Below are positions 2,345 through 47,900 of a stretch of 64,000 bases of DNA, one piece after another. Made by a program: the position numbers and the translations under genes. The notes beneath the pieces were generated by a model that did no database searches, was not told where the DNA came from, and saw only the letters and a list, made by a program, of their open reading frames with translations. Every line of letters starts with the position of its first letter. Positions within the stretch are counted from its first letter, which is position 1. The DNA is from Bolinopsis microptera (lineage: Eukaryota; Ctenophora; Tentaculata; Lobata; Bolinopsidae). The stretch is taken from NCBI RefSeq assembly GCF_026151205.1, contig NC_087080.1, forward strand, positions 7,171,096-7,235,095, read 5' to 3'.

Positions 2345-3037
2345 GGGAGGAGAACGTGAGGGTGACAAGATTTGCACTTTTACCTGCATTCAAACAGGAA
2401 AATTTCAAGTGTGCTGGTAAGGATGTAAAGTGGGTTTATTGAGACTGGAGACGGCGATACAACGGAAAAGAGATTTAATTCAGAAAAATGAATTGGGAAT
2501 TGCAAAAAACCGAACAATAGAAATTATTCACTTCATGCTTCTAAACTGAGATTAAAGTTGAGATGTTATTCATAAGTTTTATTGCCCTGTGACCTACAGT
2601 AAAATATATTTACTACTATCTGCCTGTTAAATGTCAACCCTTAGTAATTTGATGCAAGTTTGCCGTTGTATATATTTACTAACTCATCATTTGATTACAA
2701 ACATTTTAAATTCAAAATACAATGGACAATATGAATTAAGCGTTATTTTTACGTTGGATAAAATGTGCTATAAAATACGTGATCGTATTACACAGCATGT
2801 GATAGATAAGGAGACTGTTATTTGCATTTGTCACGTTCGTAGTACCTGACCTGTTACATTTGTACATGTTGCTTCTGCTCTTTTAATTTATTACTTCAAT
2901 CGATGAATCCGTGACCCGAAATATTAGGGTTTACAGAAAAACATTTTACAAAATCAGTTTCTGCCAAAGATATATTCCACAAAAATTAAGGCACATACAA
3001 ATTAACCAAGTGTATGCTCTAAAACCAGGTAGCACAC
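2345..3037. other. Spacer between the two GPCR paralogues
   Basis: This 693-bp AT-rich spacer holds no supported gene. Its 3' end carries the start context of the second receptor, which resembles that of the first (CACATGACCATATTTGGAA against AACATGACCATATTTGGAA). This fits a duplication that included the region just around the start codon. Confidence 0.6.
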
Positions 3038-4108
3038 ATGACCATATTTGGAAACACCACCTCCTCCTCCTTAGTAAACACCACAGTGACCTACACCTAC
3101 AGCTCCCTCCTCATCATATCCTCACTACTCGCCCTCCTCCTCAACCCTCTCGTCCTCATCTACAACACTTTACAACGTTCCACTCTAGTAACCAGGTTAT
3201 TCCAGCTTCTCTCCATCATAGATATTATCTTTCTGATACGTCCTGTGAACGCTCTCTATAATCTCCTCAAACCTGGACTAGATCCAATGTTTATACCTGA
3301 CCCTTCTCTGGGCAGGAAGGTTGTGTGTTTAGTTACCTACGTTACTGGGTTCAGTTCTATGTTCCTGACGTTGACTCTTTGTGTTGTCAGGTACGTTAAA
3401 ATAAGGTTCCCTTTTTGGTCCATGTCACATGACACATATATAAGTGGTGGGGTGGTAGCGGGGGTTACAGTGGACTTTATCTGGAACTTATCAGCCAGTA
3501 TCTACACTAACTTTTACCCGAGTCAGCACTTCTGGGCGAGCGCTACACAATCAGTGCTGTACGAGCCAGCACATGACGACAGTATTGTTTACATCAGAAT
3601 AATACTGTTCATAGGACCGTTCTTCTTCAAGATTGGGTTATCAGTAGTGTTCTCTATCCTAACGTTGGTGTATCTGAAGACTGATAACGGACTGCAAGTG
3701 TCAGAGATAAAGAAGAGGAGCATCATGATGATCTTGATAATGAACCTGGGAAATGTGGGATGGTGTGTGGTTTCCATTATAGTTCAGACCATCACAAGGT
3801 TTCAGAACGCTCCCATCCCACCGGGGGAGGATACTGAGTGGAGGTACTGGTACTTCTACCTCCAGTTCGTAGAGTCAGTGTTAATGCAGTCGCTCCTTGT
3901 GGCATACAATCCTCTTGTTATCTGCTGTAGGAACTCTGGAATTAGAAGAATGTTGAGGGATCTGGTGAGGTATGGACAGTTAGTGGGTCCGGATAATGTG
4001 GAGTCAACAGATCCTGTTGCTAGAAGGGGTGAGGCGATTATTGGGAATTTAGGACGGTCTATTTCTAATGTTTCAGGTTGGTCAAGAGCGCGGTTATTAG
4101 GACGCTAA
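3038..4108 (+). CDS. Class A (rhodopsin-like) GPCR, tandem copy 2
   Basis: This is an intronless 356-residue seven-transmembrane receptor and the paralogue of the gene at 1262. The N-terminus MTIFGNTTSSSLVNTT has two N-glycosylation sequons. TM3 ends CVVRYVKIRFPFWSMS, aligning with RYIKIKAPFWAMS of copy 1, and TM7 has VAYNPLVICC at the NPxxY position, without the Tyr. The basic tail after TM7 (GIRRMLRDLVRYG) matches helix 8 of copy 1. The gene lies 0.7 kb downstream of copy 1 in the same orientation. A longer frame beginning at 2911 overlaps its start but shows no receptor features, so I treat that frame as a shadow. Family assignment is strong; ligand and coupling are unknown. Confidence 0.85.
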   Translation: MTIFGNTTSSSLVNTTVTYTYSSLLIISSLLALLLNPLVLIYNTLQRSTLVTRLFQLLSIIDIIFLIRPVNALYNLLKPGLDPMFIPDPSLGRKVVCLVTYVTGFSSMFLTLTLCVVRYVKIRFPFWSMSHDTYISGGVVAGVTVDFIWNLSASIYTNFYPSQHFWASATQSVLYEPAHDDSIVYIRIILFIGPFFFKIGLSVVFSILTLVYLKTDNGLQVSEIKKRSIMMILIMNLGNVGWCVVSIIVQTITRFQNAPIPPGEDTEWRYWYFYLQFVESVLMQSLLVAYNPLVICCRNSGIRRMLRDLVRYGQLVGPDNVESTDPVARRGEAIIGNLGRSISNVSGWSRARLLGR

Positions 4109-5419: not shown

Positions 5420-5911
5420 TCATATGCGAGGTCTTTGCCCCAAAACTGGCACACCTGCAGTTGATATGCGAGGTCTTTGCCCCGAAACTGGCACACCTGC
5501 AGTTGATATGCGAGGTCTTTGCCCCGAAACTGGCACACCTGCAGTTGATATGCGAGGTCTTTGCCCTGAAACTGGCACACCTGCAGTTGATATGCGAGGT
5601 CTTTGCCCTGAAACTGGGACACCAGTAGTTGATATGCGAGGTCTTTGTCCTGAAACTGGGACACCTGCAGTTGATATGCGAGGTTTTTGCCCCGAAACTG
5701 GGACACCAGTAGTTGATATGCGAGGTCTTTGCCCCGAAACTGGCACACCTGCAGTTGATATGCGAGGTCTTTGCCCCGAAACTGGCACACCTGCAGTTGA
5801 TATGCGAGGTTTTTGCCCCGAAACTGGGACACCAGTAGTTGATATGCGAGGTCTTTGCCCCGAAACTGGGACACCAGTAGTTGATATGCGAGGTCTTTGC
5901 CCTGAAACTGG
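5420..5911 (-). repeat. Coding 42-bp minisatellite, about 11.7 copies
   Basis: A 42-bp unit containing CCTCGCATATCAACTACTGG on the minus strand is repeated head to tail. Because 42 is divisible by three, all copies stay in frame and encode the 14-residue tail repeat. Copies differ at a few recurrent sites (G/A in the Arg/Lys codon, ACT/GCA in the Thr/Ala codon). Two other frames through the array are also open, one on each strand. Confidence 0.95.
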
Positions 5912-6412
5912 CTTCTCCTCAATGGAAAATAACTTTCTGTCCCCCTCAGAACTAGAAGCAGCCAGTTTCTTCATTCTCTCTTCAACCTTACATTTCTTCC
6001 TCAAAAACCATCTGATAATGGCCAGAAAAATGATCAACACTCCTGCACCAAACAAACTCAGAAGCACAATGGAGATCTTTGCGCCGTTAGGCATGTTACA
6101 ATCACACAACGCGTTTCCATTATCACTTGTATGACACTGGCAAATCTTGAAGAAGCTGCTGGGACAGATTACATCAGGTTTAGGCTGACTACCACCACTG
6201 GGCTCACAGCGTATTGCCAGGACACCCTCTTTGCTGGTTCTTTCGACACACTTTAAGGAGGGACGGTTACAGCGCATGGAGCTGTTCTGGTGTAGACAGT
6301 TCATGTTCCAGCATTGTTCTGAGGAACTTGAAGCTGACTTTGCTGCTCTCCCGGGATCCAGGAGGAGAAAACATGTGCTGAATAGCATGGGTAGAAACAG
6401 CTGGCTCTTCAT
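5420..6412 (-). CDS. Single-pass membrane protein with a repetitive cytoplasmic tail
   Basis: This 330-residue protein is not recognised by family. Residues 1 to about 23 are a signal peptide. Residues 24-112 are a Cys-rich ectodomain with 12 cysteines and one N-glycosylation sequon (NSS). Residues 113-137 form one transmembrane helix followed by RKKCK, giving a type I orientation. Residues 138-167 are a basic juxtamembrane stretch. From residue 168 to the end there are 11 complete copies and one partial copy of a 14-residue unit, PVSGQRPRISTTGV, with Arg/Lys and Thr/Ala variants. Each unit has RxRxxT and RxxS patterns, typical of AGC-kinase sites such as Akt or PKA. The stop falls inside the twelfth unit. 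The gene appears intronless, and the start is the first Met before the hydrophobic leader. Function is unknown; a receptor or scaffold is possible. Confidence 0.7.
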   Translation of the reverse strand: MKSQLFLPMLFSTCFLLLDPGRAAKSASSSSEQCWNMNCLHQNSSMRCNRPSLKCVERTSKEGVLAIRCEPSGGSQPKPDVICPSSFFKICQCHTSDNGNALCDCNMPNGAKISIVLLSLFGAGVLIIFLAIIRWFLRKKCKVEERMKKLAASSSEGDRKLFSIEEKPVSGQRPRISTTGVPVSGQRPRISTTGVPVSGQKPRISTAGVPVSGQRPRISTAGVPVSGQRPRISTTGVPVSGQKPRISTAGVPVSGQRPRISTTGVPVSGQRPRISTAGVPVSGQRPRISTAGVPVSGQRPRISTAGVPVSGQRPRISTAGVPVLGQRPRI

Positions 6413-7930
6413 TTCTCTAGTGTGTGATATATTGGTCGGGTTAAAATCAGATGATAAAGAAGTAACGAAAAGAATTGTATGAGAAACATAATACGATTGT
6501 GCCTGGAAATGAATGTGCGATCGCTGTGCTTCAAAATCATTTTTGCCTTACGATTTTGGCATGTCATGAAGAACAAGATTAAATAACGCTATTCCACACA
6601 ATAGATATCAAGACCACATGGCCTGGATAAAGCTAAGAATGCACAAAAGAAGCCTCAACTTAAGCAATCTATTGAGAAATTGAGAAATTGAGAAAATTGA
6701 TTCAAACATCTCCAGACCAAAACGACAATAGAAAATCTATGGAATGTACATACCAGTAAGCCAAGGAATTGCTTAGTAATGAAGTATAATCACAGTTCTG
6801 GCAATCGCCATATTCAGGTGCCTTAAAAACCATGTTAAAATTGAGTTAGAGATCTGAAATTTTGCAGAGCGTCTAGATGTTGACCAAATCGACTACCGCT
6901 CTTATCCCGAAATACAAGGTATCGACCAGAAAGCAACCGAAATCGAAACTTATTACAATTCGTAAGCCATGACATCATTTACTTTTGTTTGGGAAAGAGA
7001 GACACCGGCAGCGGTCCACTCTACCCAATTATGGGTTATGGTAAAATTAAGTAGATCCAAAGGTTAAACAAGTGCAGCGCCCCAGTACAATGCAGCACAG
7101 TACAAAGACTCTCTATGAAACACAAAGAGTTGAACTGAAACACAAAGAGACACAAAGAGACAACAATTAAATGAAGAAAAAATAAAACACGGTGTTAGTC
7201 ACTTTAACAATAACAGACTATTATAGTACTAGAAACTTACTAAACTTAAACTATTTTAAAATTTAAGAAAGTGCTGACTTTCGTCTTTTAAATTAATGTC
7301 CGAAGGCTTTTATTTAGTTATTATAGGTTTATAGGTGATTGCGAAAGAGTGGAGATGGTACACAGAATGCTGGATGGATTAGCTGTTTAAAACTTTTCTC
7401 AATTTTGCGTCCATCTCGTGACACTCCCCTCTCCCAAACGACATAAACCTTTCAAATGGGTTTATGACAAACCCGTACTCACTACAGTGCAATAGATTAG
7501 ATATCAGCTAATTTAAGTAATACTACAACCGGCCCAGAATTCACTTCCAAAGTTCCAACACGCAACTCTTGAATAGCTCACGCAATTTTCGTCAGAATTG
7601 AGAAGAATATCGGCCATCGGGGCAGGGGTTAGAGATATGGGTCAAACTTAGATATTAGATGTACAGAAAGTTTCGTAAAATATTTTCGAACACATGCAGA
7701 GTGGGCGTGTCACTCCCTCTTTTTAAGATCTGGTGGAAAAGTCATCGCATTACTTTAATCATGATTCAAGGGTTTCTGTTTGGATCGTATTTTCAACGTT
7801 CACGTTAGTATAAGCCGATAAAAAGTAAAACCCTTTCCCCTCCCCAATCTTAATGAACTAAACTTTTAAGTGTTATAACATTAACAAGCGCAAACCCTTG
7901 TTTAACTCAAAATAGCCCCCAGTAAAACTG
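6413..7930. other. Intergenic stretch upstream of the membrane-protein gene
   Basis: About 1.5 kb of AT-rich sequence without a supported gene. It contains short direct repeats such as the cluster of aacacaaagag words near 7130. It should hold the promoter of the minus-strand membrane protein, but I see no diagnostic motif. Confidence 0.45.
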
Positions 7931-10262: not shown

Positions 10263-10541
10263 ATGAAAGTTTTCTTGGTTCTCCTGTTGATTCTGCCTGC
10301 TGTACTGGCTTCAACTACCCCCACTCCTGGAGCCGCCCCGAATTGTAAGCGGTACCACAAGCTTTTATTTAAGCCCGGCAAATGTTTCCAGGAGGGAAAA
10401 TACCCAGATTTCCAACCATGTGAGCCAGGAAAGACGACGAAAGAAGCCTGGAAATCTAAATGCGGGAAGGCGTGGAGGAAATTACAGAAGTATTCTAGAC
10501 GTTACTCGTCCTGTAATGACCCTCAGCAGATATGCAAGTGA
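10263..10541 (+). CDS. Small cationic Cys-rich secreted protein
   Basis: This is an intronless 92-residue protein. Residues 1 to about 16 are a hydrophobic signal peptide (MKVFLVLLLILPAVLAS). A short Thr/Pro linker follows, then a mature region with exactly six cysteines (28, 41, 53, 67, 84, 91), giving spacings C-12-C-11-C-13-C-16-C-6-C and probably three disulfides. The mature part is strongly basic, with many Lys and Arg and few acidic residues. The architecture suits an antimicrobial, signalling or other secreted disulfide-rich peptide. I do not recognise the cysteine pattern, so no function is assigned. The ATG has an in-frame hydrophobic leader and no better upstream Met. The overlapping minus-strand frame is a shadow. 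Confidence 0.7.
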   Translation: MKVFLVLLLILPAVLASTTPTPGAAPNCKRYHKLLFKPGKCFQEGKYPDFQPCEPGKTTKEAWKSKCGKAWRKLQKYSRRYSSCNDPQQICK

Positions 10542-13378: not shown

Positions 13379-16300
13379 CTAGATAGCGTTTACTTTAGCA
13401 GCGTCCACTTTCTGTCGTACTCCGTCTACCTGCATTAACAGTTCCATGTGTTTTGTCTGCAGGTTTTCTATTGACGTGTTTAGACTCTCTGTGTCGTCCT
13501 TTCTCACCTGTAGTTTTTACATTGTAATGAAAAACAGGCTACTTTCTTATCATGGAATTGCTCAATTTAATGTTGAAAGGATGCATGGTTTTTTTCCATC
13601 TCGACGAGTTTCGTATTTTCAAATTTATATCACGACTAATAATGGTAATTTTTGTCTGGTAAAATAATTACCAGATAAAATAACATATACTAAAAAGTAG
13701 TGAGCCCACCTCTAGATCCCGTAACAGAGCTTCCTGTCCAATTAAACCGCACTTCTTTCTCAACTTCACGTTATCTATACGGAGTGAGTCACGTGCTTGT
13801 TTCGTCCGGGACAGGATATCTCTCTTTTTTGCCACCTGTGGTTACAGAAGTTGTTTTCAGTGGTTTGTACTTACTTTGTATTAACTAGGTTTTAGTGCTG
13901 ATGCTGCATGAATCATGATATGCGATGGTTAAAACTAATGTGTAATTTCATATTATTCACCAAGTTAAACATGCAGGATTAGCAAGTTTGTTGTTGTTGT
14001 GTTTTATAATTGTTATCAAAATTACAATCTTACAATCTTACAATCTTACAATCTTACAATCTTACAATCTTACAAACTTACAATCTTACAATCTTACAAT
14101 CTTACAATCTTACAATCTTACAATCTTACATCATACTCTACAAGTTTGAGGTTCTCTCTTTGGCCAGCGTTCTCGCCCTGTACAAACTGTAACTTTTCTT
14201 TAACGTGGGTCAACACCTGAATAAAACTGAGTCACTAAAACCTGGTGAGTTGTATACAGGCAGCTGAACTTCAATTCGACTCGAGTATATTGTCATAATC
14301 AGTTTTTCATAGTCAAGTAATTGATAAGTATCAGTTTGTAACTATCAAGTAACTGTCTAGTAACCAGTTTATAACAATCTAGTAGCCAGTAAGTAACCAG
14401 TAAGTAGCAAGTAAGTAACTAGTTGGCGATATAACCTGTACAGTCGTAGTGATCTTCTTTCTCAACTTGAGCAACTCCTCGTTTCGCTCCTCAATCTTCT
14501 CATTGTAAGTCTGGTTCTCTATCTTCAGCTGTTCAAAGTCTATCAGGTGGAGACCGTCTGCTAGCTCCTCTTTCTGCTTCAACTGTGTCTCCCTCTTCTT
14601 CAGCTGTGTGGTGAGGAGTTTTAGTAACCTTGTTGAGGAGTGTTAGTAACTTTGTTGAGGAGTGTTAGTAACCTTGCCTAGGAGTATTAGTAACCTTGGT
14701 GAGGAGTTTTAGTAATCTTGTTGAGGAGTGTTAGTAACCTTGTTGAGGAGTGTTAGTAACCTTGCCTAATGCTTATATTCAATGAATATTATTCATAATA
14801 TGTGAACAAAGCATATATTATCGGGGAAGGTTGTAATATATGTGAGATGAGCACGGTTTAAGTTTTAACAGGTGAACATCACCCACTTTGGGTGACCACT
14901 GACCAACAACTTCACCCAATTTGACCTAGTTCCCACACAGTTAATAGGGCATCCCAAAACGACAACTTCGCCCAGCCCATATTATAACTGAATTATAACG
15001 ACGATTGGGCGGAGTTGTTGTTTGGAAGTTAACTAGGTGGCTGATTGGGTTAATACTTATTTTCCCAAGCTAACCAGTCTATAAAAGTCCAAATTAGGTA
15101 AAGTTGCCCGGTAACTTTGTTCCCACTGAGTATCTTATCACACTCAATGAACATCATCCCAAACAACCGACCGTCTCACTTCCGGGTTTTACAGACTTCT
15201 CATATCATCAAAACGGGAATCAAGTCACAGCTCTTAAAAAGACAATTAGTGTTTTATCGGCGGTTTTCAGAGACCGCTTCACAGACTTGTACTCCTTATT
15301 GAAAATACCGGTAAAATGCGCGTTATTACATCAGATTTAACGAGCGCATTCAACCGATAGGAACTAAGGTGGAAAAGAAAACCCGGTAGAGTGTTCTCAT
15401 CTAACCTCAATTATCTAATTATCTAACCCCAATTAGCGAGTCATCTAACTCAAATTAGAACAGTAAGTTTCCTAAGTCAGTTCAAGTAAAGGTAGAGGTA
15501 GTTTGTTTTTGTGAAGATTCTAGAGAATTTATATCGTGATGTGGAGAATAACATTGAGTGTTTTGTGTTTGGTTGTCTTTGTATCCAGTAGAAGGTAATA
15601 ATCAGCTCCAATTAATTAATCAATATTAATAATTAATATTTTATTCTTTCGTCTGAAATATTGAGTAAATTCTGCTAGGTTTATCAATAATGTAATTTGA
15701 CTATGATAATACGCAAAATTTCACAGCGTGAATAGTATCGGACACGGCTTTTCTCTGCTGACGGATAGTGAAGAAGAGTAAGTAATGTACCTTATAATGT
15801 ACTTCATAATGTACTTCATAATGTACCTTATAATGTACTTCATAATGTACTTTATAATGTATTTCATAACATTACCTTGTAATGAACCTTATAGTGTATC
15901 TTATAGGATTATAAATAAATCAACGAGGTTACTTTTTTAAAGTTTAAAAAATAAAATATCATTTAAGCACCAAGTTTGAGGTATATAATATTTTCAGGAA
16001 CATAGGTCATGGACTTGATCTTACCAACAAGGAAGAGTGAGCCGATTTTATACATTTAAAAAAGTTTCTTATCAGTAATCTAACTAATTTTTCTCTTAAA
16101 AAAGAGGTAATAACCTACTACAATAATTTATGAGTTATAATCATGTTGATTAATCAATTATAAATTATATAACTATATTTATTTATAAATTATTTATAAA
16201 TTATAATTATGTTTAATTAATTTATTGTAGGGATATCACGAAGGGATTTCCTGCTCTAGATAATTCGGAGGGAGAGTAAGTAGTTTTCCTCTTTACACTT

Positions 16301-19219
16301 TATACTTTACAAGTACTGTAACCTTAATATTAAGAATAAGTGTACGAAATAAAACTCGTTTACATTTCAATCCACGCATCCAACTGTCCCCACGCGGAGG
16401 AAACATAAAAAAGGATTGAATTTTGTATCTTATAGCTTGCCTTAAATTTAAATTGTCAGCCGAAACGAACAAATTAAAAACATAAAATCTTAAATTTCAG
16501 TAAAATCGGACACGGCTTTAGTCTCCTCGAAGCAAAAGAGTAAGTTTTATTTTATGATGCAAAATTAAATAATCTTAAACATCTAATTGCTCAAGCCGTA
16601 ATGAGAAAAAAACTTTCCATCCATTCTGAGCACCTTAAAATGACGTTTAGTTAATACAGTAACACCCCAATTTACTGTGAAGTTTGGGGAAAAGGAGAAG
16701 GCCACAGTAAATCAGGGCTGGCGGTAAATCGGGGTTTTGATTGTTCACATTTTTATGTTTAGTTCTTATTTGGGGGAAGAAAATTGTCACTGTGTATAAC
16801 AGGGTCTGCACTTTGCATTAAATCAGGGCGCAGTTTATCAACGTGCGGTAAATCGGGGTTTACTGTATTTTGAAAATAAGAGGTCAGACACCATTGATGT
16901 AATACACATGATATAGTATTAACGACCTTTTCAACCCGACTTATTGAATCATTGATAGAATAAACTATTCTCCCTTTTAGAGCGGATTCTTTTGAGCACT
17001 AACTGACGTTAGCGAATGGTTAGAGAATGTCAGTATTAGTTGAAGGTGAGTTAAGGGGGCCGGGGGGGGGGGGGGGTCTTCATTAAGATTAGTTAGTCGA
17101 TATAATTTATTTGATCTATTCCAAGTAATATTGAAGTTTGAACATATTAGATACATCATGTGGTAGAATAATAGGATAAAGTGTTATAAACCTGATTTAT
17201 TTCAACTTCAAATAATCAAAGTCTTCTTCTGATACGCTTCTTAAAGATTCTTTTTCGGTTTATATGTAGATTTGTACCACTAACCACTTTGATATTATAT
17301 TATGTACTAGAGAATGTTAACAGTGACATTTTCAGATGGTCCAGTTAAAGTGTCTGCAACAGATATAACCAGTCAACAACTGCAGATCTGTTAACCTCAA
17401 CATATTATTACAGCTAGTTTTAATGTGCGTGTCTTGCCTATAACATTTCTATTCAATTATGTATTATACTTTTAGCTGGATTTTTGAATATTTTGACTTA
17501 TGAGCCAGTTTAAAATGTAACCTTTTCATTTTCTGAGAGTTACTTCCATTGAAGTCTTTGCAATATTAAAACTGTACATGGATCTAGATTACAGTATGTT
17601 GATCGATTTCAAAATTAATGCAAGAATTTCAATTGTTGTTAGTATACTTCTGTTTTGGACCGTGACTGATCACCAAAAAAACTTCGTCAAAATAAAGCAA
17701 AATTTGGACAAAAAAAAGAATATTAAATATCTAATATAATCTAAAAAGGAATAACCACGAAAATGCCATGTAGATAGTATAAATACCTTGTTAATGAGCT
17801 TGATATTCTCCAATCTAACAGCTATCACCTCTTCCTCTTTCTTCTTCTCATTTGCAATGTACTGTTCTATGTCTTTCAGTGCAAGAGGTTTTCCTGACCT
17901 GTAACGAAAAACTTGATGAGCGGTTGGGGAGGCCAAGCCTATTTGACCAAAAGTTTAGGAATAAATGGGCAAAAGGGGCATCATTTTCATCAGTTTTCGT
18001 TAACAAATATTATATGAATGATACAAATAATTCGATTGATACATATACTTCGAATGATGCATATTATAATAATACAATATATAATACAATCTTGGTCGAA
18101 TGTAGGCCAGGTCACAACTCATTAAAGAGTATTAACCCAAGCCTTAAGGATAAAACAAGCTATATTTCCTACCTGCTGTTAACAGCTTGTTTGGCGACTC
18201 CTTTCTTAAACTCGAAATACTGAGCAGTCATCTCGTCCACTAAATTCTTCTTCTCCTCCATTTTCTCCTTCTCTTCGTTACTTCTCGAGTCTGCTTCTTT
18301 CTGAGTTAACTCGTTCTCCAATTCTAGTTCGTCTAGAGCTTGTAGACACTTCATGTACCTGGCAGATACTTGGTTATCTTATGTTACATTCTGTTACATT
18401 TCATGACAGACGTTTTAGTCAGAGTTTATTTCCATTTAATCCAATTGCAATTGCGAAATCGCCAATATATAAATTTTGAAATAGAAATATGAATTTTTAT
18501 CGTTCAAAGTAAAAATGGATGAGTACGAGTTTAAACTTCCAAAAAAATACCTCTGCTCTTGATCTGTTACACTTTTCTCCACCTCCTGTCTCTCATCTGC
18601 TCCCTTCTTCTTACGGAAATGTTCAGCGATTTTGTGCTGACACTGACTGTTTTGATTCAATATCTTGTCCCGCTCGTTCAGGGCAACCTGGTATTTCTCC
18701 AGTAACTGGGCCCTAGTGAGTTTTGGGTTTTATTTCAAATAAAGCTACATAAAAATACCATAAACAGCACAAAAAATTATTAGATGAGCTTTAATCAGTT
18801 GTTCAATTTTCAAGAGACCTAACCTATGTCCCATACCTGTCCAGGCCAGTTTGTGAGGCACTATCATCAGGGCCTAGGTGCTCTTCCAAATCCTCTGATG
18901 GTGTTCCCCTGTCAGGAGTTGATGGACGTATTGATGGGATTCTAGGGATTGCTTTGTCCGAAGGTTTAGGACCTAATGCTGAAGTTGTTTCTTCTTCATC
19001 TTCAACACCCCCTGTAATCATGATTTGTTGAAATAACACCGATCAGGGTCTGTGTGAGAAACCAATAATGAAGTGCCATTTGTCAGCCTGGCATAATAAA
19101 TCAGGTATCATTCAATCAGCGAACATATTAATTATCATATTAACAAAGTTACCTGATCGGTCCAAGGGATCTATCTGGGGAGGACCATCTTTAACTGTGA
19201 CATTTTCTTCTCCACTCAT
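13379..19219 (-). CDS. CFAP184: CFAP184/CCDC96, ciliary coiled-coil protein (9 exons)
   Basis: Nine exons join in phase: 19219-19153, 19011-18837, 18712-18551, 18358-18173, 17898-17787, 14603-14436, 14216-14142, 13835-13710 and 13429-13379, giving about 373 residues. The N-terminus is acidic and disordered (MSGEENVTVKDGPPQ). From exon 3 onward the protein is continuous coiled coil. The block with GLHLIDFEQLKIENQTYNEK, LTHVKEKLQFV and KCGLIGQEALLRDLE is the hallmark of CCDC96 (DUF4201 family). This protein pairs with CCDC113/CFAP263 in cilia and flagella and supports axoneme structure and motility. It is shorter than the human protein (about 555 residues) because the N-terminal acidic region is short. 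Intron 5 (about 3.2 kb) contains an opposite-strand micro-exon gene. Two introns carry minisatellites touching their splice signals. Confidence 0.93.
14020..14135. repeat. 8-bp tandem repeat just past the CFAP184 exon 7 donor
   Basis: About 14 copies of CTTACAAT (minus strand ATTGTAAG) begin a few bases downstream of the exon 7 donor at 14141. On the transcribed strand every unit contains GTAAG, the consensus start of a splice donor. Apparent reading frames in this stretch are artefacts of the repeat. Confidence 0.9.
14612..14766. repeat. 22-bp minisatellite carrying a branch-point-like motif before CFAP184 exon 6
   Basis: Seven copies of GAGGAGTGTTAGTAACCTTGTT (two degenerate) end within ten bases of the exon 6 acceptor. 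On the transcribed minus strand most units read GGTTACTAACACTCCTC, so TACTAAC, the ideal branch-point sequence, followed by pyrimidine-rich bases is repeated. Confidence 0.85.
14919..15052. repeat. Imperfect fold-back upstream of the micro-exon gene
   Basis: An inner pair (CCAAAACGACAACTTCGCCCA with TGGGCGGAGTTGTTGTTTGG) and an outer pair (ACCCAATTTGACCTAGTT with AACTAGGTGGCTGATTGGGT) are inverted around an AT-rich loop. The structure lies about 0.5 kb 5' of the micro-exon gene start. It could be a small MITE remnant. Confidence 0.6.
15539..17002 (+). CDS. Micro-exon gene for a secreted peptide with repeated IGHGFSLL-like modules
   Basis: Six short exons join in phase: 15539-15594, 15727-15777, 15998-16036, 16231-16275, 16501-16539 and 16981-17002 (TAA at 17000). 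Every intron is phase 2 with GT-AG ends, so exons 2-5 (51, 39, 45, 39 bp) are symmetric and could be skipped or duplicated without a frame change. The 83-residue product begins MWRITLSVLCLVVFVSSR, a signal peptide. Each middle exon then encodes one diverged module: VNSIGHGFSLLTDSEE, ENIGHGLDLTNKE, EDITKGFPALDNSEG and DKIGHGFSLLEAK. The last exon encodes EADSFEH. Modules are separated by acidic residues, with no dibasic or amidation site. The layout resembles the micro-exon genes known from flatworms, and acidic spacers recall some cnidarian peptide precursors. The family is unrecognised. The gene lies wholly within intron 5 of CFAP184, on the opposite strand. Confidence 0.75.
15784..15900. repeat. 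13-bp tandem repeat just past the exon 2 donor of the micro-exon gene
   Basis: About eight or nine copies of TAATGTACTTCA/TAATGTACCTTA follow the donor GTAAG at 15778. The first unit overlaps the donor (GTAAGTAATGTACC). It lies in intron 2 and is non-coding. Confidence 0.85.
17063..17076 (+). repeat. Poly-G tract near the end of the micro-exon gene
   Basis: A run of about 14 G (interrupted GGGGGCC just before it) lies roughly 60 bases after the stop codon of the micro-exon gene. It could form a quadruplex or stall polymerases. Its true length is uncertain because homopolymers are often mis-sequenced. Confidence 0.6.
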
Positions 19220-41930: not shown

Positions 41931-44900
41931 TCACAGATTTTCTGTCTCTGCTGATACTTGATTTGGAAGTTCCCGATCCTCTTGTACTCTGAAAGGTTCC
42001 ATCTGTATGACATCTATCTCATTGTTCCCGCTCTGTATGTTTTCACTCCTCGTCGAAATGAATCCTGTTAACGAAGACATAACTGCGGAGGTACTGAGCC
42101 TGATGAGTCTTTTAACCTCTCCTAAATGTCTACCTAAGAACTCTGTTAATTTTTTGTCGTATATCAGCGGGTTGATAACAGAGTTAAGTGGAAGAGCTAT
42201 CATTGCATACGTAACATACCATTTAGTCGCATCAAAAACGTCAAGATTATGCATACCGCTTATAACAATAAATGGTACCCAGCAAAGGAAGTCAGTTGCA
42301 ACAATGAGAGTAATTTTATTCTGTAAAGCCCTATTGTCCCTCACTCTTTCTGGGTTGTGATGCTGTCCTGATCTCCGTGAAGAAAGCCTGGTCTGGATAT
42401 TGATAACTAAGTAGCAACAAGTGATGATGATGAAGCAGACTAAGTTCACACAGAGCATTAGCCAAACTACTGGATCTCCTTTATGATCAGTTATGTCTGC
42501 TCTACTTTCTATTGATTGTCTGATCCTTCTTGCATCGTCACTCCGAACAAAGTACTTGAATAAGCATACACCGCCGTTACCATAAAAATGAACTGGACGT
42601 CTACTCAAAAGTCCATATTGTTGAGTGAACATACCGTCCACCTTATCACTGATTTCTTTCCAGGTCAAGTCCATAGTGATGTTAGTGGTATTGTAGTGAG
42701 CTTGAAGAACTTTAACATGTTTCTCTTTGTTGGGGAAGCCTATGAAAACTTTATAGATGGGGTCATAGTACATTCCTTGTACAAAATATTCCTCTAATGA
42801 AGGTATCAATGGTGTAACAGCTATAGCTAGTGAAGCAGTGATAATACCTGTTACCAAGAAAGCAAGCTTGATGACGGAATTTCTTTTTACAGGGCCTGGA
42901 ATACCCATTCTCTTAAAAGTCAGCCCATACATTCTGATGATACTTAAAGCTGTCATTGCGAAAAGAGACACTTGTGATCCAACTGTGCTGATGACCCCCA
43001 GTATCGAGCATGCTGTTCCGGTGTACCATTCGGCTTGATGTATGCAAAACCAGTTCCCATATACGAAACTATCATAAACGGACAACAGAACCAAGTATAA
43101 TCCGATAAATAGATCCCCTGATCCGATAAGACTGACTATTGCCTTGTTAGTTAACATAATATTTTCAGTCTCACTATCCTGTAGAGTTGTCAGCCCACAG
43201 AATACGGTGTACGAGTTGAAGATCAATGCTAGTACACCCATAACCCAGCATAATACCTGTAGTATCCAGTTCCCGAGGATTCTTTTCCCACAAGCGGTAT
43301 TACATTCATCTGAGAGGTCAAAGCAATCATAGATGCCGTCACATTTCTGTGATAAGGAAATGAACTGATGATCAGTTGAGTTTAAAGTGTCTTCGCAGGT
43401 CATGTGATTTGCACAGTTTGCCTCGTCACTCATGTCCCCGCAATCATCTATGAGATCACACACTTGCTTGTATTCAATACATCTACTATTATTGCATTGG
43501 AAATAGTCCTGGTGATAATGGCCGTGTTTTGATTTTGCAACAAACGTTAGAAAAGAGTTGTTAGCAAGCGTATAGATTCGGTTGGGATATTGTCCAGGAC
43601 ATGAATTATACAACAATGCTCTGTCTGTATTTAAAGGACATCGGGAATCTAAACAAAGATCCATGCAACTGAGAAACAGATAATATTCACCAAACAGACA
43701 GCTGCAATTAACCTTAGAGGTCGGAACAATTAACTCTAACTTTGTTATTCCGAATACATCAATCCAGGGTCGTATGAACTCTTTTACTTCACAGTTAGAA
43801 TCATTACATACATTTCGCAATCCTCCATGATAAAGAGCGGTATTCTTGATCGTTGGTAAATCTCTAGCGATTCTACAAACCTCGTTTTCTGCACCGTCAC
43901 CACACGTCTCCACTCCGTCACAGAGTTGTTTGAATTTAACGTATGGTTTATCACTTTCCGGACACAGATAGACGTTTTTGCAGATTTCACCATTTTGTTT
44001 AAAATGATAGGTTTTGTCAGTTTTGTTGCCGCAGACTTTCAAGTCGGACTCCTCAGGCTGTTCATCTAACCCGTCCATACAATCCACCACATCGTCCATT
44101 ATCCAAGAAACTGGTATTCCGAACTTCATACTTATTTTAAAGCTAAACCTACGGACACATGGAAATGTATTCGTCATGTATTCGCATATGTCATGAAGTT
44201 CGTCACTTCCATCATTACAATCCCACACTCCGTCACACATTCTGTGTTTGTGTATTGTACAGTTAGTGGAAGTAGACGGTGATGTACAGTTGTATTGAAT
44301 GTCATCGTCGCATAACTTAACTGGTAAACTAGTCTTCTCATCATATTCAAAACACACCATTTGCTTAGAAACACTCGAGTTATACCCATAAATATCACAA
44401 TACCCCCCTACTCGCTCTATATCAGAACAGTTAGTCTGATCTAGATAGTTCAGACAGTATGGATAGATGAAACTTTTTTTAATGTCAAAGACAGAGCACC
44501 TAGTATAGTTAAAAATTGGTACTGTTATAGTGACTCTTGTCCTCACTTTTCTGCTGTAACGTGTACACGAATGTGGCGTACTTTCAGTAACATTACAGTT
44601 CTGTTCATCCTCTCCTTCATCACAGCTCTTGTATCCGTTACATATCTTGCCTACAGACGTATACCAGTTACCCCATGTTCTGCAGTTAATTCCGTATTTA
44701 TACCTGTTACAATCACTTTCATCTATACATCTATTGTCGTCACATTTATAATTACATAGCTTTGTTGAGACGTCACTACTCTGTAATGCTGAACAATCTT
44801 TATCTGCACTGCAGTTCTTATCACATTTGATGTATTCGTTATTACAAAACAAGCCTCCACACAGCACATCCGTGTTAGTTATTTTTGTGTCAAATCCACA

Positions 44901-47900
44901 CGCCTGATACACGTGGGGATCTTTCTCACACACTGAAGTAACCCTGGCAAGCTGATAATCATTTAGACCAGATAGATCATGTTCAAAGTACACATCAGAG
45001 TGAGCACACTTGAAATTTTTTCGGTTCTTCGTTTCATTGAAACACACATTTTTTAGAAACCCGTCTACTGCTGTTACTGTACAATTTTCACCTGATTTCC
45101 TCAATTCGCTCACTATACTGTAATCTACACAGTCATGACAAGAACATTGCCTAATAGTGTTTCTACACTTTCCATGCCTCCAATGACTACAACACGGGTT
45201 CTCCCCGTCAGGGTCACACTCAGCAGGACTGTTATCAGGGAGGCAATACTGACTACCACATCTACCGTCATACCTCCACTTTCTCTTACCTCCTGATTCT
45301 TTCCATTCCCTATATATAAGACTGTAATCTACACAGTAAGTACAAGAACAGTGTCTAGTCGTGTTACCACACTCTGCACTCCTCCAATGACTACAACACG
45401 GGTTCTCCCCGTCAGGGTCACACTCAGCAGGACTGTTATCAGGGAGGCGATACCTTCTACCACATCTACCGTCAGACCTCCACTTTGTCATGGCTTCACC
45501 TGATGGAGTAAAGTATTGCATACTTTGCATTGTTTATACTGTCAACATGTACTTAATACCTATATATAATTCGGCTGTCCTGCATTAAATCATTGTTATA
45601 TTATTCTCGTGAAACGCCTTAATGTTGGAGGAGGAGGAATTTCCTCGGTTATTTCGGTTAATTGGTCGATAACAATTTGGATTAGATTGAATGGCTGTTT
45701 CAAATGCACTTATTTTCTTAAATAATAAGCTGTTCTTTGCAATCTGGGGAGACCGTGTACTTGAGCACATGACACGAAATCTGTTCATTGACACCTCAGT
45801 ACAGAAAGGTTTCATGAAGTGCCTGTCTATGTCTATGAAGTGTACTGGAGGAAAGTACAATACCTATGATGCAGAGTTTGTACTAAGCGAACAACAGGTG
45901 CCGTCCATTTGCATTATCCAAGCACCAATGAAGTTCCTAGGAATGTACATGTATGTAGATCTTGAGGTGAAGAAAATTCGATCTATGATTAAGAAGAAGT
46001 TGAAGACCTTTTGGAAACAACGTCTAATGATGAAATCACGGGTCCAATGAAGGCGTGGGTGTATAACCACCTCATCATTAGTAAGATGTCATGGGGGTTT
46101 ACTGTTTATAACCTACCCATCACATTTGTGAGAGAGCTTGAGGCACTGTGTAACAGATACCTTAAGAAGTGGCTAGGGATTGCGCATCCTTGTACCACCA
46201 CCGTCCTCTACAGGAGTAGAGACCAGAAAGGATTGCAGCTGAAAAACATCTGCACTGAGTACAAAGTCATCCAACTTATTAAGGGACACCAACTTTGTAA
46301 CTCTAGTGACCCCTACATCAAAAAAGTGTACTCTAACCATAAAGCTATTGCAGACACACAGAAGATGTGGTCTTATCCCAAAGAGCTGAAAGACCGTCAG
46401 CGCCAACTTTACTTCCAAGAGTTAGTTGGAAAACCTGCAGTTGGTACAACTGGCCTCGGGTATGGGACAAGATATGGGGACACATCAGAGAGGAAACTGC
46501 TAACCAACATGGTGAGGACCTTTGATGAAGAGACACTTATTTGTTCACTTTTTGACAAAAAGCGACAAAACCTCTTTCTCACATGGGAAAATACAATGAC
46601 ATTTAACACCACGTGGAATGACCTTATCTATCAACTTAGTCCGGAACTGTTAAAGTTTCATGTCAATGCTATCCATGACACTGCGTCAACACCTAGCAAC
46701 CTAAAGCTTAGGAATAAAGCCGTTTCAGGAAACTGTAAACTCTGCAGCAAACAAGGGACACTCAATCATATCCTCACGTTCTGCAAGGTTGCATTAAGAC
46801 AGGGACGTTTCAGCTGGCGCCATGATAAGATTGACGCGTTTAATTCCGACATCGCCAAGGAATCGAAGAGGGCACCCACCGTCGGTCTTTCACAAGGCAG
46901 GCAATAAGCGCGAGAAGGTTACCCTAGCTGACCCAACTCATCATAAGACCCAAAGATATTTCTTCTCAGATGCCAACGACTGGAAGATAATATTTGATGA
47001 GGATGAGAGACAGAGGAACTTGCCGCAGCACATTGCAGCTACACCACTAAGACCTGATGCAGTGATCTATTCAGATAAAGCAAAGAAGGTGTATCTAATG
47101 GAGCTGACTTGTGGAAATGAGCAGAACTTTGCTGATCAAGAGAAGCGAAAGATGAAGAGATATCAGCAGCTGACAGAAGAGATAGAAGTCAACGGATGGG
47201 CTTGCAAGCTCCAGACAGTAGAAGTGGGAGCTCGAGGCATTTACAACTATAGCCTCCCAACCTTTATGAACCACCTGAACGTAAAGAACAAAGAGAAAAA
47301 GAAAGCCTACATGAAGATCGCTGAGATCAGCCTGAGGGCATCGTATACCATCTATTTGTCCAGAAACACTACCATATGGACAGATAATTGGGAGTTAGTC
47401 AAGAGACCAGTAATAGCATAGTAGGAGCGTAGAATGTTTGGGCCCAGAAAAACATGTTTAATACCGCTATGAACCCGTCATAAGCCGGGGACTACTATGA
47501 AAGTGATGATGCTGTGTTGTTGAAAGACCTTCGACCAATCAAAGATGTACCTCGGCCTCATCACGCCAAGCAGTTATGCTTGTAGGTGAATATACACTTA
47601 TAGAGTACAACAACTTTATAACACTCCATAGAATATTATTATAGAATAATAGAATTTCCTACCTGATCCTGCTTCCTTTCGTTCTCGACTACTAGTAGTA
47701 TATCTTAATATACTACTAGAAGTATAATGCGGAGAAGAAGAAGAGGTTAATTGCTCTTCACTTCGAACCTTTTCTTCTTTTTGTCCACCTGTATCACCTG
47801 GATCAAAATTGTTAATCAAGTATCCTAAGCTATAATTGTGACAACTGTTGCCCGTTAAGAATAACGTTAATAGATAATCCATTATTGTGTTGTTTGCCCT

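Follow-up and report, generated by a model that had tools for sequence, protein, structure and literature searches.

Ctenophores are central to the debate on how nervous systems arose, and to our knowledge no relatives of their peptides have been recognised outside the phylum. Dibasic sites and Gly-Lys/Arg amidation sites are hallmarks of classical neuropeptide precursors. Such sites are not universal in neuropeptide precursors, as acidic cleavage sites are documented in Bolinopsis; in Bolinopsis mikado peptides, acidic residues are major cleavage sites (PMC9525235). The mass spectrometry survey of B. mikado, the main one in the genus, kept amidated peptides only, and ARVYKGYNGGNRVWYa, the Bolinopsis VWYamide peptide, was proven by mass spectrometry (PMC9525235). 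In Hydra, the gene for GRFamide preprohormone-C consists of ten exons, with the signal sequence in exon 1 and one peptide copy in each following exon. It is alternatively spliced, N-terminal cleavage of its peptides always occurs after Glu, and it encodes several non-amidated copies (pQWLSGRFGLXXX) together with amidated copies at both gene ends (PMC8638164). The Hydra LW-peptide is non-amidated and bioactive (PMC12440616). A design of signal peptide plus symmetric exons is also found in the micro-exon genes (MEGs) of schistosomes (PMC4350168). By definition, about 80% of the coding region of a MEG lies in symmetric exons, which are mostly 6-36 bp long (commonly 15 bp) and number 10-20 per gene; one source permits exon sizes of up to 81 bp. 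MEGs are reported as restricted to platyhelminths.

We analyzed a window of 64 kb from Bolinopsis microptera. It contains a chain of six very small exons, which lies inside an intron of a gene on the opposite strand. The features of this locus are as follows.

15080..15086, + strand: TATA-like TATAAAA, 459 nt upstream of the ATG, a consensus match only
15505..15538, + strand: possible 5' acceptor TTTGTTTTTGTGAAGATTCTAG/AGAATTTATATCGTG, followed by the ATG, which might be usable by a ctenophore spliced leader
15539..15594, + strand: exon 1, 56 nt; ATG and signal-peptide-like MWRITLSVLCLVVFVSSR; phase-2 donor AG/GTAATA
15727..15777, + strand: exon 2, 51 nt; module 1, (S)VNSIGHGFSLLTDSEE; donor GTAAGT
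15998..16036, + strand: exon 3, 39 nt; module 2, (E)NIGHGLDLTNKE; donor GTGAGC
16231..16275, + strand: exon 4, 45 nt; diverged module 3, (E)DITKGFPALDNSEG; donor GTAAGT
16501..16539, + strand: exon 5, 39 nt; module 4, (D)KIGHGFSLLEAK; donor GTAAGT
16981..17002, + strand: exon 6, 22 nt; (E)ADSFEH, then stop TAA
16651..16870, no strand assigned: dispersed repeat lying within the nested gene's fifth intron; its ends, AATACAGTAACACCCCAATT...AAATCGGGGTTTACTGTATT, are inverted
14604..17786, - strand: CCDC96/CFAP184 host intron enclosing the nested gene, 3.2 kb, placed by its flanking exons and splice sites
17787..17898, - strand: CCDC96 exon on the 5' side of this intron (...IEQYIANEKKKEEEVIAVRLENIKLINK), placed by Pfam/PDB match and splice sites
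14436..14603, - strand: CCDC96 exon on the 3' side of this intron (LKKRETQLKQKEELADGLHLIDFEQLKIENQTYNEK...), with an approximate 3' border of its own

On rebuilding from the sequence, the six exons had the boundaries given in the first-pass annotation to the base. They join to a coding sequence of 252 nt, corresponding to 83 codons plus TAA, and encode the product MWRITLSVLCLVVFVSSRSVNSIGHGFSLLTDSEEENIGHGLDLTNKEEDITKGFPALDNSEGDKIGHGFSLLEAKEADSFEH. The introns measure 132, 220, 194, 225, and 441 nt, and all five proved to be GT-AG introns in phase 2, as had been claimed. In-frame stops are present upstream of the ATG. The signal peptide that had been assigned to exon 1 agrees with its hydropathy: a single basic residue is followed by a hydrophobic core with a value of 2.94 for residues 4-14, so that MWRITLSVLCLVVFVSSR can be called signal-peptide-like by this measure. 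Trans-splicing is common in ctenophores (PMC8527503). Exon 2 contains a possible second in-frame acceptor (GAATAG/T at 15735/15736), with which the module would begin exactly at IGHGFSLL. A long G run at ~17058-17076, some 55 nt past the stop codon, may be sensitive to assembly.

The ciliary gene in which the exons had been said to be nested was identified as CCDC96/CFAP184. Its exons matched the Pfam family CCDC113_CCDC96_CC with an E value of 4e-22 and CCDC96 in the PDB with an E value of 3e-30. Nesting is ordinary in the phylum, since 2357 nested intronic genes have been reported in Hormiphora (PMC8527503). Further copies of the dispersed repeat in intron 5, at least ~40 in number and 71-84% identical, occur on most chromosomes.

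The structure was weighed against the view that it is made up of chance or decayed exons and that no gene exists. An unsupervised scan, blind to the motif, collected open internal exons of 30-60 nt (a range picked with the nested gene in mind) between YAG and GTRAG, in any phase and on both strands, and the peptides of neighboring exons were compared. In the 64-kb window, the seven top-matching exon pairs under these splice rules all belonged to the nested gene. When the same scan covered 264 kb of contiguous chromosome, pairs from the nested gene scored 42, 29, and 28, compared with 22 for the highest-scoring unrelated pair. Among 2000 first-order shuffles of the window, the best pair reached 36 versus 42 observed and the best exon triple 13 versus 28 observed. 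A four-exon chain in the same phase appeared in 22 of the 2000 shuffles (~1%); taken alone, such a chain is weaker evidence, and its occurrence in shuffled windows speaks for the absence of a gene. Because bare chains of this kind arise by chance and the length range was chosen from the gene itself, statistical weight was placed on the mutual similarity of the exons. On this measure the no-gene view fares poorly: the similarity of the exon triple was never approached, neither in the 2000 shuffles nor in the 264 kb of real DNA. The start, frame, splice sites, and stop are all intact, and the synonymous pattern between the repeats described below likewise argues against decayed exons. We regard it as very improbable that no gene is present and are highly confident that the six-exon nested structure is a genuine gene.

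The first-pass annotation had described four diverged modules, one per exon. Three of them, in exons 2, 3, and 5, are clear copies of the IGHGFSLL type, and acidic residues lie between the modules. The fourth was less convincing. The module of exon 4, ITKGFPAL, is clearly more diverged, its likeness to the others is weak taken alone, and it would be a distant member of the module family at best. Exons 2 and 5 have a block of 23 nt in common, which was detected by nucleotide identity alone. In the eight codons of this block, four of four differences are synonymous (P 0.004); among them is a Ser that is TCT in one exon and AGT in the other. When the IGHG of exon 3 was compared with that of exons 2 and 5, all four codons differed by a silent change in the third position (P ~0.0006, for an alignment chosen by protein similarity). 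Because the codon differences between the repeats are mostly synonymous, the repeats are taken to be coding and under selection. Exon duplication had been proposed as the origin of the array, and we likewise consider that it probably grew through duplication of a phase-2 exon.

Searches of the genome with the protein, with the DNA, and with three splice-anchored motif patterns revealed no paralog and no second copy of the module. The pattern in which an acceptor and four bases precede IGHG and a donor follows it was matched by exons 3 and 5 only across 264.65 Mb, with 1 match in the control. A few motif matches were present elsewhere in the genome, on C3, C5, and C7. The match on C3 was considered as a second gene and was rejected, as it had no fitting exon context. 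From these searches, the nested gene appears to be single-copy. The earlier statement that the product resembles no known family held up, as Pfam, NCBIfam, and PDB yielded nothing credible for it. A weak match to Attacin_N in Pfam (E 0.005), below the cut-off and spanning 11 residues, was discarded. Literature searches for the letters of the motif returned chance substrings only. Most likely, the precursor is previously undescribed; a Mnemiopsis ortholog may already stand among the predicted precursors of Sachkova et al. 2021.

As a yardstick from the same genome, we used the gene for the VWYamide peptide, which is encoded there letter for letter as ARVYKGYNGGNRVWY-G.

L018 807-1524 (C4): complete VWYamide precursor gene, three small exons with phase-1 introns, 62 aa

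This precursor has a signal-peptide exon of 67 nt and an acidic spacer, and the peptide begins directly after EEE. The coding sequence of the mature peptide is interrupted by one of the introns, immediately ahead of NRVWY. NPWa, the second reference neuropeptide, was not found in the genome by two patterns, and only VWYa therefore serves as a yardstick. Judged by eye, the sequences of VWYa and NPWa are unrelated to IGHGFSLL. The nested-gene product resembles the VWYamide precursor (ML02736a family) in its small exon for a predicted signal peptide, in the acidic residues directly ahead of its putative peptides, in its very short length, and in its small exons. The VWYamide precursor differs in that it carries one amidated copy, ending in Gly-stop, and has phase-1 introns and no repeated exons, and the two products are without sequence similarity.

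From exon 2 on, each junction of the nested gene splits an acidic codon (GA/G, GA/G, GA/T, and GA/A). Every later module is therefore preceded by an acidic residue. Because of these acidic junction codons, the cleavage at acidic residues in B. mikado, and the plan of the VWYa precursor, we consider it probable that the nested gene encodes a multi-copy, non-amidated, neuropeptide-like (regulatory peptide) precursor. The acidic precursor, with ~65 residues past the signal peptide and one copy of the IGHGFSLL type per exon, would enter the secretory pathway and be secreted. It may be cut at acidic residues, and perhaps also at single Lys residues, between the modules, whose cleavage borders are guessed. 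Several related short peptides (NIGHGLDLTN..., KIGHGFSLL..., and IGHGFSLL...) could be released in this way, and they would act on a receptor. Such IGHGF peptides would have been missed by the survey of B. mikado because of its selection for amidated peptides.

A real gene could also be used differently. The mature region has no dibasic site and no Gly-Lys/Arg amidation signal, with 4 Lys and no Arg after residue 18; it is acidic, with a pI of ~4.4, and free of cysteine. The lack of dibasic and amidation sites counts against the neuropeptide reading, as does the poor conservation of the exon 4 module. These properties of the mature region, together with the lack of a family match, would suit a product that is used whole, i.e. 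a low-structure, acidic secretory protein of gland, mucus, adhesive, or antimicrobial type in which the repeats are mere repetitive sequence. However, the silent divergence is centered on the 8-residue motif, whereas the acidic linkers vary freely, which resembles selection on a short ligand. Moreover, acidic linkers serve as cleavage sites in Bolinopsis (PMC9525235). Use of the product as a whole protein is thus a possible but rather unlikely explanation.

The likeness to flatworm micro-exon genes that had been remarked upon turned out to be a poor fit. The nested gene resembles schistosome MEGs in its predicted signal peptide, in its short symmetric exons, in the longer introns between them, and in the predicted secretion of its product. 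Its symmetric exons, however, make up 69% of the coding sequence, are four in number, and measure 39-51 bp, as opposed to the 10-20 exons of 6-36 bp in MEGs, and the genome that harbors it is that of a ctenophore and not of a platyhelminth. A related idea is that the gene works as a device for variability, in which symmetric exons yield many secreted variants by exon skipping. All internal exons are symmetric in phase 2, allowing 16 in-frame combinations, and this design is shared by the schistosome genes (PMC4350168). On the other hand, the exons exceed those of MEGs in length and are far less numerous, and they are near-repeats of one motif, so that leaving one out would mainly alter the number of copies and less their kind. 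The repeats are also conserved rather than fast-evolving. We therefore hold such a device to be quite improbable. A peptide precursor with acidic residues between its modules, like the neuropeptide precursors of ctenophores and hydrozoans, fits better than the comparison with micro-exon genes. In a precursor of this kind, skipping of an internal exon would alter the dose or the mix of peptides and leave frame and cleavage sites unbroken, because the internal exons are symmetric and bounded by acidic codons.

The closest design is that of the Hydra GRFamide preprohormone-C, which combines a signal sequence in exon 1 with one peptide per exon; the corresponding signal sequence and cleavage after acidic residues are putative for the nested gene. 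The Hydra gene differs in its unrelated QW...GRF peptides, its ten exons, its occurrence in a cnidarian, and its amidated copies at the ends. A peptide of the QW(L/F)SGRF type is absent from the nested gene, the modules of which are of the IGHGFSLL kind. Since the sequences are unrelated, the likeness is one of working and not of membership. Precursor A of the Hydra LW-peptide (PMC12440616) is similar in being taxon-restricted and in lacking the C-terminal Gly needed for amidation, but it differs from the nested-gene product in sequence.

A more far-reaching proposal, which we put forward tentatively and with considerable doubt, is that the gene represents a ctenophore-specific family of non-amidated IGHGF neuropeptides. 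Its tandem exons would set the copy number and exon skipping would tune it, and introns placed inside acidic cleavage codons would let splicing and proteolysis share the borders of the modules. This would be an exon-per-peptide solution as in Hydra, either independent or inherited from the earliest animals. Any exon-modular precursor of non-amidated peptides would add to the signaling chemistry known from ctenophores, and it would offer a direct test of whether ctenophores and cnidarians share exon-per-peptide precursors with acidic cleavage. Such a precursor would be nearly invisible to the usual searches, as it has no dibasic or amidation sites and very small exons.

Several further reading frames were observed in the window. 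Two adjoining, similar single-exon ORFs at 1199-2341 and 3023-4105 (+ strand) are like rhodopsin-type GPCRs, the first matching 7tm_1 with an E value of 7e-4, below the family cut-off; possibly, they form a lineage-specific tandem receptor pair. The ORF at 5423-6547 (- strand) encodes a signal peptide, a Cys-rich part, and a transmembrane helix, followed by ~13 near-identical units (PVSGQRPRISTTGV) of ~15 residues each, which presumably face the cytoplasm. At ~10263-10538 (+ strand), a small secreted Cys-containing ORF (MKVFLVLLLILPAVLASTTPTPGAAPNCKRYHKLL...) is present, which has no Pfam match. A single open frame of 1200 codons at 41934-45533 (- strand) combines an LDL-receptor class A repeat with 7tm_1 and corresponds to a large intronless LDLa-GPCR.
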